From a virus: a stretch of 42,087 bases of DNA. The notes under the pieces were generated by a model that worked only from the letters and a program-made list of their open reading frames with translations, was not told the origin of the DNA and did no database searches. The translations under genes were made by a program, and so were the position numbers. Numbering within the stretch: position 1 is the first letter of the stretch; each line of letters opens with the position of its first letter. The DNA lies in the IMG/VR virus record IMGVR_UViG_3300035698_005219, positions 1-42,087 of that record; one strand, given 5' to 3'. Positions 6,871 through 41,553 of the stretch are shown one piece after another.

Positions 6871-7848
6871 ATGTTGACAAGTAATTGGGCAGATTTCGTC
6901 AAAGGCGTATCTGCACGAATCGACGAAATAATCGACGATACCAAAGAACTTGCCCCTAGTTTTCAATCTTATGGTCTACATAAGACTGAACAAGCTGACG
7001 GTCAAATTTATAGGACTGAAGGTGTAACTGGGCTAAGTTATTTGGAAATATTCGATGAGGGCGATTCAATCACTGAGGATAAAACATACCCTGCTTACAA
7101 GACTGAATACACAATGAAGCAGTCAGGTAAGATTGTATCTATCTCTCAAATGCTAATGAAGACTCGAATGTCTGAATTAGAAGCAAAGTTGGATGAAGTA
7201 AGGCAAAACATGATTGCTGCTAATAGAACATTGAATAGATGGGCTTGGGCGCCACTAATCGATGGTTTTGGCACAACTGATAATGCGTCAAACTTTCCAA
7301 CTGCACGTCTATCTGACGGAGTATCACTTTACAGTACTGCTCATACCTCAAAAGTTGCAGGTGTTGCAAACAGATCTAACCGTGTTGCTAGTAACCCAGT
7401 CCTATCAAAGACTTCTTTATTTACTGCTGTAAAGCAGATTAAAGAACAGCTTAACGGACGAAGTCTACCGATCGGTTATCAAGGTAAATTTGTATTAGTA
7501 GTTCCACCTTCTCTAGAGAAGACAGCTATTGAGTTAACTAACTCAATCTTGGCTCCTGATACAACAGATAACAACATTAACTACTACAACGGTGTTGTAG
7601 ACGTGATGGTTGTTAACTATCTAGGTAACGCTGCAAACAGTGTTACTAACGCTGATACATCATGGTATGTATTTGCTAAGGACGCAGGAAACCAGGCTCC
7701 ATTACGATATGTTTCTTTAATCTCTCCAAAGATTGAAAAGGACGTTGACTTTGATACAAAGGCTATCCGAGTATCAGTGGACATGGCATGTGCTATGGGT
7801 TACTCAAACTTTGAGTACACGGTCGCTTCAGATGGTTCAGCGAGTTAG
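6871..7848 (+). CDS. Major capsid protein (HK97 fold, Mu gpT-like)
   Basis: A 325-residue shell protein. Order: N-terminal helix; a long beta-hairpin-like region (E-loop, about 50-90); a helical spine (ISQMLMKTRMSELEAKLDEV, about 92-115); then LYSTAHTS, the conserved 'l.s..H' segment of gpT-like capsids (about 152-160); and a C-terminal core with GKFVLVVPP. Length is typical of HK97-fold subunits without a large delta domain. It follows scaffold and decoration genes, and a strong hairpin follows it. No protease gene was recognised nearby. Confidence 0.85.
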   Translation: MLTSNWADFVKGVSARIDEIIDDTKELAPSFQSYGLHKTEQADGQIYRTEGVTGLSYLEIFDEGDSITEDKTYPAYKTEYTMKQSGKIVSISQMLMKTRMSELEAKLDEVRQNMIAANRTLNRWAWAPLIDGFGTTDNASNFPTARLSDGVSLYSTAHTSKVAGVANRSNRVASNPVLSKTSLFTAVKQIKEQLNGRSLPIGYQGKFVLVVPPSLEKTAIELTNSILAPDTTDNNINYYNGVVDVMVVNYLGNAANSVTNADTSWYVFAKDAGNQAPLRYVSLISPKIEKDVDFDTKAIRVSVDMACAMGYSNFEYTVASDGSAS

Positions 7849-7885
7849 GCTGACGGTACTGGACATTAAATAGTATATTTGATAC

Positions 7886-7944
7886 AATAATATTAGGAAC
7901 AAGCATAGGGAGTGAATTGGTCATTCCCTGTGCCCAATATTATT
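7886..7944 (+). other. Intercistronic hairpin after capsid gene
   Basis: Outer stem AATAATATTAGG (7886-7897) with CCAATATTATT (7934-7944), one bulged base. Inner 12-bp stem 7904-7915 with 7921-7932, including G-U pairs, and a 5-base loop. No run of T follows, so it is more likely an RNA processing or stability element, or a weak terminator, than a classical terminator. It resembles the hairpins at 9352, 15131 and 21960. Confidence 0.65.
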
Positions 7945-7960
7945 AATTAATTTAAAAAGT

Positions 7961-8659
7961 ATGCTATTTAAACATTGTGATGGATGTAGAAAGAAGTTCT
8001 TTAAACCGTATAATTGTTCTCTAAAAAATTGGAAAATTTCAAAGTATTGTTCTAAGGAATGTTCTAATAAGGTTGTTGCTTTTAAGAAAGGAAATGACCC
8101 GTGGAATAGGGGAACAATAGGGGTATGTAAAGAAAACTCTGGATCCTTTAAAAAGGGTCATTCATGTGGGCATAGGTATCTTAGGGGTCACAAACCCTGG
8201 AATGACGGAACTGCGAAAGTCTCTAAGTATGTGTGCATGAATTGCAAAAAAGAATTTGAAGTTTCATCGAGTGTAAACGGGAATAGACCAAGGAAATATT
8301 GTTCGCATGAATGTTGTTACTCCGATAGGAAAGGAAAAAACTCTCCTAGCTGGAAGGGCGGTATTACCTCCTTATATGACTTAATCAGAAAAAATAATAT
8401 CTACAAGCAATGGACAAAAGATATTATTAAAAGAGATGGTTACATTTGTAATAAGTGTAAAAAGGTCGGTGGGAAATTAGAAGTTCATCACAAAAAAGAC
8501 TTTGCGACAATTATTAGAGAAAATAAGGTCAAGTCATTAGAAGATGCGCTCACTTGCGTAGAGCTGTGGGACCATGATAATGGTGAGACTTTGTGTAAAA
8601 ATTGTCACAAACTTACTAATAATTACTGTGGTCGTGGAATTAAGCGACCTAAAAATTAA
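7961..8659 (+). CDS. HNH endonuclease with NUMOD-like repeats
   Basis: A 232-residue free-standing homing-type nuclease inserted in the capsid operon. It has N-terminal zinc clusters (CDGCRKKF, YCSKECS); repeated KG.DPWNRG/KGHKPWNDG/GKNSPSWKGG segments of the NUMOD3 type that contact DNA; a second CxxC...CxxxC cluster (residues about 88-120); and a C-terminal HNH core with LEVHHKK (about 173) and LCKNCH (about 213). Such genes usually cut at a neighbouring site and spread by homing. It is likely selfish rather than part of virion assembly. Confidence 0.9.
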   Translation: MLFKHCDGCRKKFFKPYNCSLKNWKISKYCSKECSNKVVAFKKGNDPWNRGTIGVCKENSGSFKKGHSCGHRYLRGHKPWNDGTAKVSKYVCMNCKKEFEVSSSVNGNRPRKYCSHECCYSDRKGKNSPSWKGGITSLYDLIRKNNIYKQWTKDIIKRDGYICNKCKKVGGKLEVHHKKDFATIIRENKVKSLEDALTCVELWDHDNGETLCKNCHKLTNNYCGRGIKRPKN

Positions 8660-28615: not shown

Positions 28616-28693
28616 TCTTTTATTTTAATGAGTTAATAATTTCTTTTTAAAATTAGTGCAGATTATTATAGGAAACCTGCAAAACCTTGACCG

Positions 28694-28822
28694 TTACGAC
28701 CTCTCCTTCCTCTTCTTACAGTCTGGACAAATCACTGGCACTATTTTAGTACCCTTAGGAACTTCTCCGACTGACCAGTAACCACCGACCAGAACTCTTA
28801 GACATTCCTTACAGACTTTCAT
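28694..28822 (-). CDS. Small zinc-ribbon protein with strong Shine-Dalgarno
   Basis: A 42-residue protein: CKECLRV near the start and ICPDCKKRKERS near the end, a CxxC...CxxC zinc ribbon. AAAGGAGG lies 7 bases before the ATG at 28822, one of the few strong ribosome sites in the genome. It shares this with the small zinc proteins at 14708 and 14926. Too small for an enzyme. Confidence 0.6.
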   Translation of the reverse strand: MKVCKECLRVLVGGYWSVGEVPKGTKIVPVICPDCKKRKERS

Positions 28823-28861
28823 CTTCTACCTCCTTTCTTAATGAACGAATACTATTTAACA

Positions 28862-29020
28862 TTAGTCAAACCTCATCTTTAATCCAGTTCTTCTTTCCCA
28901 GTTATCGGTTTTTTCAAATCTCCTTGTTAGCAAGAGCCGTCGGATAAAAGTTTTAATCGGTCTTCCAATTATTCCTTCAACTGGAAATCCATCTTCTCCA
29001 ATACATAAATACTTTTTCAT
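28862..29020 (-). CDS. Small basic hypothetical protein
   Basis: A 52-residue protein starting MKKYLCIGEDGFPVEG and ending with Arg/Lys-rich helices (FIRRLLLTRRFEKTD). It begins 15 bases downstream of the methyltransferase stop on the same strand. No family recognised; coding is supported by operon position and composition only. Confidence 0.45.
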   Translation of the reverse strand: MKKYLCIGEDGFPVEGIIGRPIKTFIRRLLLTRRFEKTDNWERRTGLKMRFD

Positions 29021-29034
29021 GTCGTTATGTTCTT

Positions 29035-32023: not shown

Positions 32024-32140
32024 TTATTTGCCTTTTGTACCAGTGCCTCCTCCACCACCACCAGAGCCACCATTGCCACTGTTGGATGAACCACCACTGT
32101 TACCGCCAGAACTACCACCACTACTACCTTTGCCACCCAT
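32024..32140 (-). CDS. Gly/Ser-rich mini protein
   Basis: A 38-residue protein, MGGKGSSGGSSGGNSGGSSN then more Gly and a TGTKGK end. A clear AGGAG lies 7 bases before the ATG, so it is very likely translated despite its low complexity. It lies immediately downstream of the large structured RNA on the same strand. Such Gly-rich peptides may be disordered linkers or host-targeting peptides; function unknown. Confidence 0.6.
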   Translation of the reverse strand: MGGKGSSGGSSGGNSGGSSNSGNGGSGGGGGGTGTKGK

Positions 32141-32184
32141 TGTCTTTCTCCTGTTTTATGGGATGTTCGTTTTGAACTTCCCTG

Positions 32185-32590
32185 TTTACAAACTCATTGT
32201 AGCAGGCAAGGATTTGCCGAGAGGCAGTCATTTCTCTGCCATGGAACACACTTTGTTTCCTCGTATAGTCACCTTGCATAGGAATTACCCATGTTTCTGT
32301 ATACGTTGGAAGAGCATGGAGACCCTATCGATTAGCGTCTACCTTTTCCGCCACTGCTACAATCAATTTACAAACTGGATAAGATGGATTAGCCCATGCG
32401 ATGATGTATAAAGAGAATGTACACCATCAACTAACCCACCATACCAGCAAGCAAAAACGTATGAGGAAAAATACTTGACTGGGGTGCGCTGCCAAGAGAA
32501 TCTGTCATGTACGGAATACAGAGACTTATCCCAGCATGCGCATTGATAGCTCTCATACTTGTCGTAGCAGCACACCTCAATCAATTATTT
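32185..32590 (-). ncRNA. Large structured RNA candidate
   Basis: No convincing gene fills 32141-32604. The minus-strand transcript can form: 11 continuous pairs 32430-32440 with 32383-32393, enclosing 32418-32428 with 32400-32410 (10 of 11 pairs, 7-base loop); a long-range perfect 10-bp helix, 32354-32363 with 32196-32205; inside it CCCTAT 32323-32328 with 32278-32283 and CATGG 32315-32319 with CCATG 32289-32293; 32552-32558 with 32459-32465; and small hairpins at 32223-32240 and 32205-32218. The G-U pairs only work on the minus strand. Ends are approximate. GOLLD, ROOL and HEARO are families to compare; none recognised. Confidence 0.65.
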
Positions 32591-32604
32591 ATACCTCTAT
32601 AATA

Positions 32605-32811
32605 TTATTCTCCTTGTTTTATTTCTTCAGCTAGCTGTTTCCATCTTATTACTCCAGCTTTTGGAATATTAACTCCATAAGTTCTTAATTTAAGAGCAGC
32701 GTTAGCTATTACCTGTGATGAAACATTAAATAGCTTTGCCAAGTCTGGAGTAGTTTTGCTTCGGTTTAATTCTTTTGCGATAACCTTGATTTGATCGTTT
32801 GTTAATTTCAT
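32605..32811 (-). CDS. Small helix-turn-helix protein
   Basis: A 68-residue protein. TTPDLAKLFNVSSQVIANAA at about 20-40 is a helix-turn-helix, with flanking helices. It resembles sigma-like or MerR-less small phage HTH proteins and probably binds DNA. It lies directly upstream of the structured RNA on the same strand, so the two are likely co-transcribed. Target unknown; the GGTTATnCCC sites are candidates. Confidence 0.7.
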   Translation of the reverse strand: MKLTNDQIKVIAKELNRSKTTPDLAKLFNVSSQVIANAALKLRTYGVNIPKAGVIRWKQLAEEIKQGE

Positions 32812-41237: not shown

Positions 41238-41285
41238 ATTCGTGCTATTCTGTCAAGTTCTGTTTTAATATAAATTGAATTGCTT

Positions 41286-41546
41286 GGACGTTCCTAGACA
41301 CTTTTTTTTATTATAACCAATAAAAGATTGAAAAACTTTTAAAACGTCTAGGAACGTCTATCCTTTTATTATTCTAAATAAATTTTTTTTATAGTATATA
41401 TATTATATTGCAATATAATATATATGTATATAGTTTTTATATATGAATAAAAAAATTTGCATGGACGTTCCTAGACGTTTTAGTTTTTTTGGTATATTTT
41501 AGCAAATTATTTTTGTTAAAACGTCTAGGAACGTCTAGGAACGTCC
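41286..41546. other. Putative replication origin: symmetric iterons around a 30-bp palindrome
   Basis: Iterons of the type GGACGTTCCTAGACGTTTT occur at 41286-41299 (forward), 41341-41360 (reverse), 41463-41482 (forward) and 41518-41546 (reverse, with a second overlapping unit). They are symmetric about a perfect 30-bp A/T palindrome at 41396-41425 (centre TTGCAA). Inner iterons are centred about 60 bases from the middle, and outer ones about 120. No coding frame is seen. The layout fits an origin bound by an initiator, next to a DnaA box and divergent promoters. Confidence 0.65.
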
Positions 41547-41553
41547 AATATGA

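Follow-up and report, generated by a model that had tools for sequence, protein, structure and literature searches.

A family of predicted tRNA-like RNAs without an anticodon arm in bacteriophages

A gap between genes in the virus record IMGVR_UViG_3300035698_005219 (IMG/VR) almost certainly holds a phage RNA of a widespread, uncatalogued family. Throughout, 'the window' means the whole stretch of DNA that was analysed, with a length of 42,087 nucleotides. Comparison with relatives demonstrates that the fold is kept by selection and identifies the RNA as phage-borne, non-coding, tRNA-like and, as judged from aligned sequences, devoid of an anticodon arm. It occurs in two forms, called here types A and B, and the window carries type A. 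No earlier description was found in Rfam 15 or in the open literature searched (subscription journals and most preprints lay outside that search).

The gap (32141-32604) separates a small Gly-rich ORF (32024-32140) from an ORF of 68 amino acids (32605-32811). The initial annotation had described it as lacking a credible gene, and ORF inspection bears this out. Two ORFs were considered and rejected as coding: one of 73 amino acids (32363-32584) and one of 51 amino acids starting at 32279, for which tblastn gave no relatives. In neither case are the frames preserved across the RNA family. No conserved protein frame was found, and in 81 of the 87 type-A relatives every frame is interrupted within the RNA. 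The neighbouring replication genes fit the label 'early region' given to the gap. The ORF directly downstream of the RNA (32024-32140) specifies a tiny Gly/Ser-rich protein (MGGKGSSGGSSGGNSGG...).

The minus strand, on which a structured RNA had been proposed, folds with an energy of -155.9 kcal/mol over positions 32150-32604 (z = -5.7), lower than all of 100 shuffled controls. The plus strand of the same interval is also low (z = -3.9); the minus strand folds better. For 32184-32376 (minus strand) the folding z against shuffles is -4.46. The parts of the element and the two domains upstream of it are listed below. R1 is the covariance model and 'relatives' are the family members, both described further on.

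32184-32375, minus strand: whole type-A tRNA-like RNA, including a closing helix of about 22 bp; 21 of the 22 outer pairs form
32196-32363, minus strand: core tRNA-like domain of 168 bases (R1: 110.2 bits, E = 9.8e-24, model positions 1-170)
32354-32363, minus strand: 5' strand of the acceptor-like helix, paired with 32196-32205; 10 pairs, each changed on both sides in 60 relatives
32353, minus strand: U8, conserved in 87 of 87 type-A sequences
32335-32351, minus strand: D-arm GCGGAAAAGGTAGACGC, identical over 17 nucleotides in 42 of 87 type-A sequences
32279-32327, minus strand: variable arm, Pv, instead of an anticodon arm; helix of 5 bp (32323-32327 with 32279-32283), weak in the window itself
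32278, minus strand: U48 equivalent, directly before the T-stem; T in 118 of 118 type-B and 86 of 87 type-A sequences
32272-32277, minus strand: 5' strand of the T-stem, GCAAGG, paired with 32206-32211; covariation seen in relatives searched for without constraining the stem
32260-32264, minus strand: helix inserted in the T-loop, ACGAG, paired with CTCG at 32218-32221; 3' strand kept in relatives found without fixing it
32222-32259, minus strand: variable insert with two predicted small hairpins; sequence not conserved
32206-32216, minus strand: 3' half of the T-loop (CAAAT) and 3' strand of the T-stem (CCTTGC); equivalents of C56, A57 and A58 from alignments
32378-32465, minus strand: upstream hairpin containing the stacked helices at 32383-32440 (z = -3.15); no relatives
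32466-32600, minus strand: upstream long-stem domain (z = -4.05); no relatives

The window copy thus has the split T-loop (ACUAU-ACGAG...CUCG insert) and the closing helix, 32354-32375 with 32184-32205, that mark type A. The perfect 10-bp helix previously reported to close a 168-base domain proved exact, and it corresponds to the outer helix in the match to the family model. The stacked helices at 32383-32440 are also present. The hairpins that energy calculations had placed inside the 168-base domain were not upheld: comparative data give a D-arm, a T-arm and a variable arm instead. The proposal of one large RNA stands in part. An element of 168 to 192 nucleotides is conserved; that the whole 400-base gap forms a single RNA is unproven, because neither upstream domain has relatives. 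Sixteen-nucleotide probes from 32466-32600 and 32378-32465 matched 13 and 4 viral contigs, with no extended similarity, and both domains were rejected as family members, R1 giving them only 2.1 and 1.7 bits. They could represent independent RNAs, or extensions confined to one lineage.

Other sites in the window were recorded along the way. At the non-coding right end (41270-41550), direct and inverted repeats surround GACGTTCCTAGACGTTTTA, which occurs in three copies and also as complements; the folding energy of both strands is low, and this cluster could be an origin or an operator cluster. An apparent gap at 28616-29034 is filled by small minus-strand ORFs, one of which specifies a 42-amino-acid peptide resembling a zinc ribbon (CxxC...CxxC). 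The strongest plus-strand folding signal of a 200-base scan (z about -6.6) lies at 7801-8000, between capsid-like and HNH endonuclease genes.

Protein searches for close phage relatives gave none through the 68-amino-acid neighbour or the primase, and the terminase identified only relatives of at most 38% identity. The family was opened by a blastn comparison of the window RNA with 50 distant, terminase-linked viral records. This gave one match of 20 out of 20 nucleotides, ATGCAAGGTGACTATACGAG; on either side of it, the closing helix and the 3' arm of the window domain recur. The 17-mer GCAAGGTGACTATACGA then matched 51 viral contigs, nearly all with the same layout. This is far above chance, since the control 16-mers from the adjacent upstream gap matched only the 13 and 4 contigs mentioned above.

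Type A has a constant organization. Its 5' part consists of the closing helix, UG, the D-arm (GCG-GAAUAGGUAGA-CGC) and a first variable region that ends in AU and is mostly 30 to 120 nucleotides long. The 3' part consists of GCAAGG-UGACUAU-ACGAG, a second variable region, CUCGU/G-CAAAU-CCUUGC and the closing helix. This layout reads as a tRNA body in which the acceptor helix is stacked directly on the T-stem. Features of the tRNA core that are kept include U8, A14, A15, G18, G19, U48 and the CAAAU half of the T-loop; U8, G12, A14 and A15 are each present in all 87 sequences. The D-arm was not part of the type-A search pattern, so its conservation there is unselected. Between positions 55 and 56 the T-loop carries an inserted helix. 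No anticodon arm with a 7-nucleotide loop is present; its place is taken by a variable region of 15 to 150 nucleotides with the helix Pv. Pv ends about 2 nucleotides before the T-stem, with a mean score of 6.84 against 5.51 +- 0.17 for shuffled sequences in type A and 7.45 against 5.81 +- 0.18 in type B. The outer helix pairs more often than shuffled sequence as far as about position 22 and no more than by chance beyond it, so that a handle of 22 bp is common to type A.

Covariation was measured on 60 type-A relatives, with the window left out. Pairs form in 94.4% of cells, compared with 38 to 44% for control structures slid along the alignment, and both sides vary in 17 of the 24 pairs. The alignment has a covariation score of 0.553, versus 0.149 after shuffling; none of 500 shuffles scored as high. 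The T-stem, unconstrained in the search, occurs as GCAAGG/CCTTGC, GTAGGG/CCCTAC, GTAACG/CGTTAC, GCGAGG/CCTCGC and GCCATG/CATGGC. For the inserted T-loop helix, part of which the search patterns prescribed, the case rests on the unselected conservation of the 3' strand in the first set, not on covariation. The covariance model R1, trained on the 60 relatives with the window excluded, found a single place in the window, 32196-32363 on the minus strand, which is to the base the 168-base domain first picked out from the letters.

Exact matches to the D-arm in unannotated DNA of cultured phages revealed type B. Its T-arm is uninterrupted (loop UGCAAAU, with G at position 55) and its acceptor is about 7 to 9 bp long. 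Copies occur in SPP1, phi3T, Lactobacillus phage Lenus, Leuconostoc phage Ln-9, Enterococcus phage VEsP-1, Bacillus phage KLEB27-1, Weissella phage WC29P3 and zrk29-2, as well as in many prophages; R1 scores these eight named-phage copies at 44 to 61 bits. In SPP1, a phage of Bacillus subtilis, the copy is 109 nucleotides long and lies between genes 9 and 11. Its free-energy fold is a cloverleaf with acceptor, D-arm, long Pv arm and T-arm, at a z of only -1.6. A second, shorter tRNA-like sequence (ACGGACG...GCGCGGGTTCAATTCCCGGAGTCCGT) lies just downstream (1305-1370 of the fetched locus); it gives a weak tmRNA match (13.8 bits), which thus falls outside the type-B RNA itself. The Lenus copy sits between two tRNA-Arg genes. 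A viral scan for type B gave at least 120 contigs, and 122 distinct type-B sequences were extracted; the identity of their D-arms is by construction, since the exact D-arm was in the pattern of that scan. Types A and B occur together in two loci (L163 and L101). Tandem or multiple copies are present in four (L277, L317, L287 and L331), arranged head to tail in L277 and L317 as in tRNA arrays. One further viral locus (L339) carries four type-B copies on the minus strand, at 728, 1096, 1296 and 7862.

About 200 fetched viral loci carry the RNA. In bacterial genomes the 17-mer gave 10 matches, of which two are real (Salipiger bermudensis and a Cytophagales MAG); the other eight have no flanking structure and look like chance. 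Among 200 genomes from the phylum of Salipiger and 198 from that of the Cytophagales MAG, the RNA was found in none beyond the genome chosen as centre. Under stricter filters it is present in 4 of 148 Lactobacillales genomes, and in two of them it lies between a late transcription regulator and the small terminase, a prophage setting. The RNA is thus rare in the bacterial genomes sampled, which marks it as phage-borne rather than a core bacterial gene. The neighbours of type A include no dominant family beyond generic HNH endonucleases, and this lack of a conserved partner gene fits a stand-alone RNA. In a description made with no control set of phage neighbours, type B often lies near late transcription regulators, HNH endonucleases and small terminases, a setting that in many Firmicutes phages is the start of the late operon. 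Two of 150 proteins beside type B match a Thoeris anti-defence Tad2-like domain. Beside one divergent type-A copy, tRNA-Ser and tRNA-Ile genes lie on the opposite strand (L088, 1664-1872).

The family had been put down as unrecognised, and the database searches agree: with gathering and permissive cut-offs, no Rfam 15 family matches the RNA itself in the window or in 16 family loci. RF00005 has no match in the 168-base domain at E up to 10. ARAGORN predicts no tRNA gene in the window and makes no tRNA call at the RNA in the family members checked. In the reverse direction, the best non-member matches of R1 are genuine tRNA genes: four bacterial non-member loci that were chosen and fetched are all tRNA-Leu (34 to 37 bits), and one tRNA-Ser gene scores 34.8. 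One Leuconostoc genome gave weaker matches of up to 45 bits, their identity unchecked.

On these alignments and scores, the nearest known RNA is tRNA-Leu. The family shares with this class II tRNA (RF00005) U8, the D-arm GCGGAAU-GGUAGACGC, A14/A15, G18G19, U48, a T-stem with G53-C61, the T-loop CAAAU and, in type B, a 7-bp acceptor. It differs in having a variable arm instead of an anticodon arm, a 6-bp T-stem and no encoded CCA and, for type A, in the split T-loop and the closing helix of about 22 bp. Like tmRNA (RF00023), it has a tRNA-like body in which a long helix replaces the anticodon arm and does not decode. Whereas tmRNA has no D-stem, the family has one; it is also much shorter and has no mRNA-like tag frame. 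ARAGORN made no tmRNA call, and most family members contain no open frame. YrlA, a bacterial Y RNA, is likewise a tRNA mimic without a free CCA end, but its RNA ends are on the anticodon side and those of the present family on the acceptor side; YrlA gave no match in the search of all Rfam families.

The best overall explanation, to which we give about an even chance, is that this phage non-coding RNA acts as a mimic of the tRNA-Leu body, from which the family may derive or on which it may have converged. The minus strand would be transcribed into an RNA predicted to fold in an L-like shape, with a coaxial acceptor-T stack and a putative elbow of D-loop and T-loop. Such an RNA cannot decode, since the anticodon arm is replaced by the variable arm. 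As a stable RNA acting in trans, it would bind through the elbow a host factor that handles tRNA; candidates are LeuRS, RNase P, RNase Z, the CCA-adding enzyme, a tRNA-modifying enzyme or the ribosome. The factor might then be decoyed, or the RNA might serve as a recruiting platform, the phage-specific part presumably being the variable arm and, in type A, also the T-loop insert and the 22-bp handle. We rate this decoy or platform mechanism a little short of even. That the D-loop and position 48 are tightly conserved while the insert varies freely fits a docking body with a variable payload. Against mimicry, the type-A handle hides the normal acceptor end, CCA is not encoded, the 7-bp helix of type B is followed by A in only 66 of 122 sequences, and the type-B T-loop has G at position 55.

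A rival reading is a role in cis, in which a tRNA-like fold in a polycistronic phage mRNA would recruit RNase P, RNase Z or, through the 22-bp stem of type A, RNase III to cut or protect the message. The length of this stem is sharp, type A is mostly co-directional with its neighbours (69 of 87 upstream and 74 of 87 downstream genes) and terminators almost never follow it (1 of 85). Type B behaves otherwise: it is often found at the boundary between genes, the gene downstream shares its strand in only 68 of 122 cases, and it has terminators of its own (hairpins of this kind downstream on its own strand in 21 of 111 cases, on the other strand in 0 of 111). The neighbouring genes are also diverse, and the bases of the D-loop are more strongly conserved than a plain processing signal needs. 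We consider a cis role unlikely for the family, and possible mostly for type A. A further alternative is a tmRNA-like or tRNA-Leu-like molecule that receives CCA, is charged by LeuRS and takes part, with no decoding, in reactions linked to EF-Tu or the ribosome. Bacterial LeuRS depends on A73 and on the D/T tertiary core, not on the anticodon. The D-arm matches that of tRNA-Leu, whose genes are the nearest known RNAs, and the 7-bp acceptor of type B is often followed by A (66 of 122). Base 73 is nevertheless variable, no CCA is encoded, acceptor and T-stem add up to 13 bp and not 12, type A forms a continuous helix with no free end, and there is no tag reading frame. Charging therefore appears improbable.

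Two further alternatives were weighed. A resemblance to GOLLD and ROOL had been suggested, and the RNA might, like the cages they form, be an RNA-only assembly or scaffold. Those RNAs too are phage or prophage RNAs of unknown function, and they are often found near tRNA genes (PMC12286853), as are some relatives here. The suggestion is not supported: neither model matches, whether at gathering cut-offs or with E as high as 5-10, the type-A element is 168 to 192 nucleotides long, not an ornate 500 to 800, and no fold is shared, all of which makes a scaffold very unlikely. Least probable, to the point of being barely tenable, is a functionless decayed or intron-bearing tRNA-Leu gene. The D-arm does show clear sequence kinship to tRNA-Leu; yet the covariation of acceptor and T-stems across the 60 relatives already contradicts decay, which would not preserve a T-loop insert of identical position and sequence throughout type A. 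There is, besides, no anticodon arm, and no tRNA was called.

The mimic of the tRNA-Leu body is the reading we retain. The family escaped tRNA finders and Rfam although it is carried by phages of Bacillus, Lactobacillus, Leuconostoc, Enterococcus and Weissella, among others, and R1 lets others annotate it. With this family the tRNA mimics gain a phage class; because SPP1 of B. subtilis carries a type-B copy, the function can be studied in a laboratory model. Our broader proposal is a tentative one: phages across several bacterial phyla may carry a dedicated class of RNAs that imitate tRNA-Leu without its anticodon, in some cases as tandem arrays, and these would capture, in the course of infection, a host factor that handles tRNA. 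If true, this would be a class of counter-defence or translation-control RNA with no cellular counterpart.
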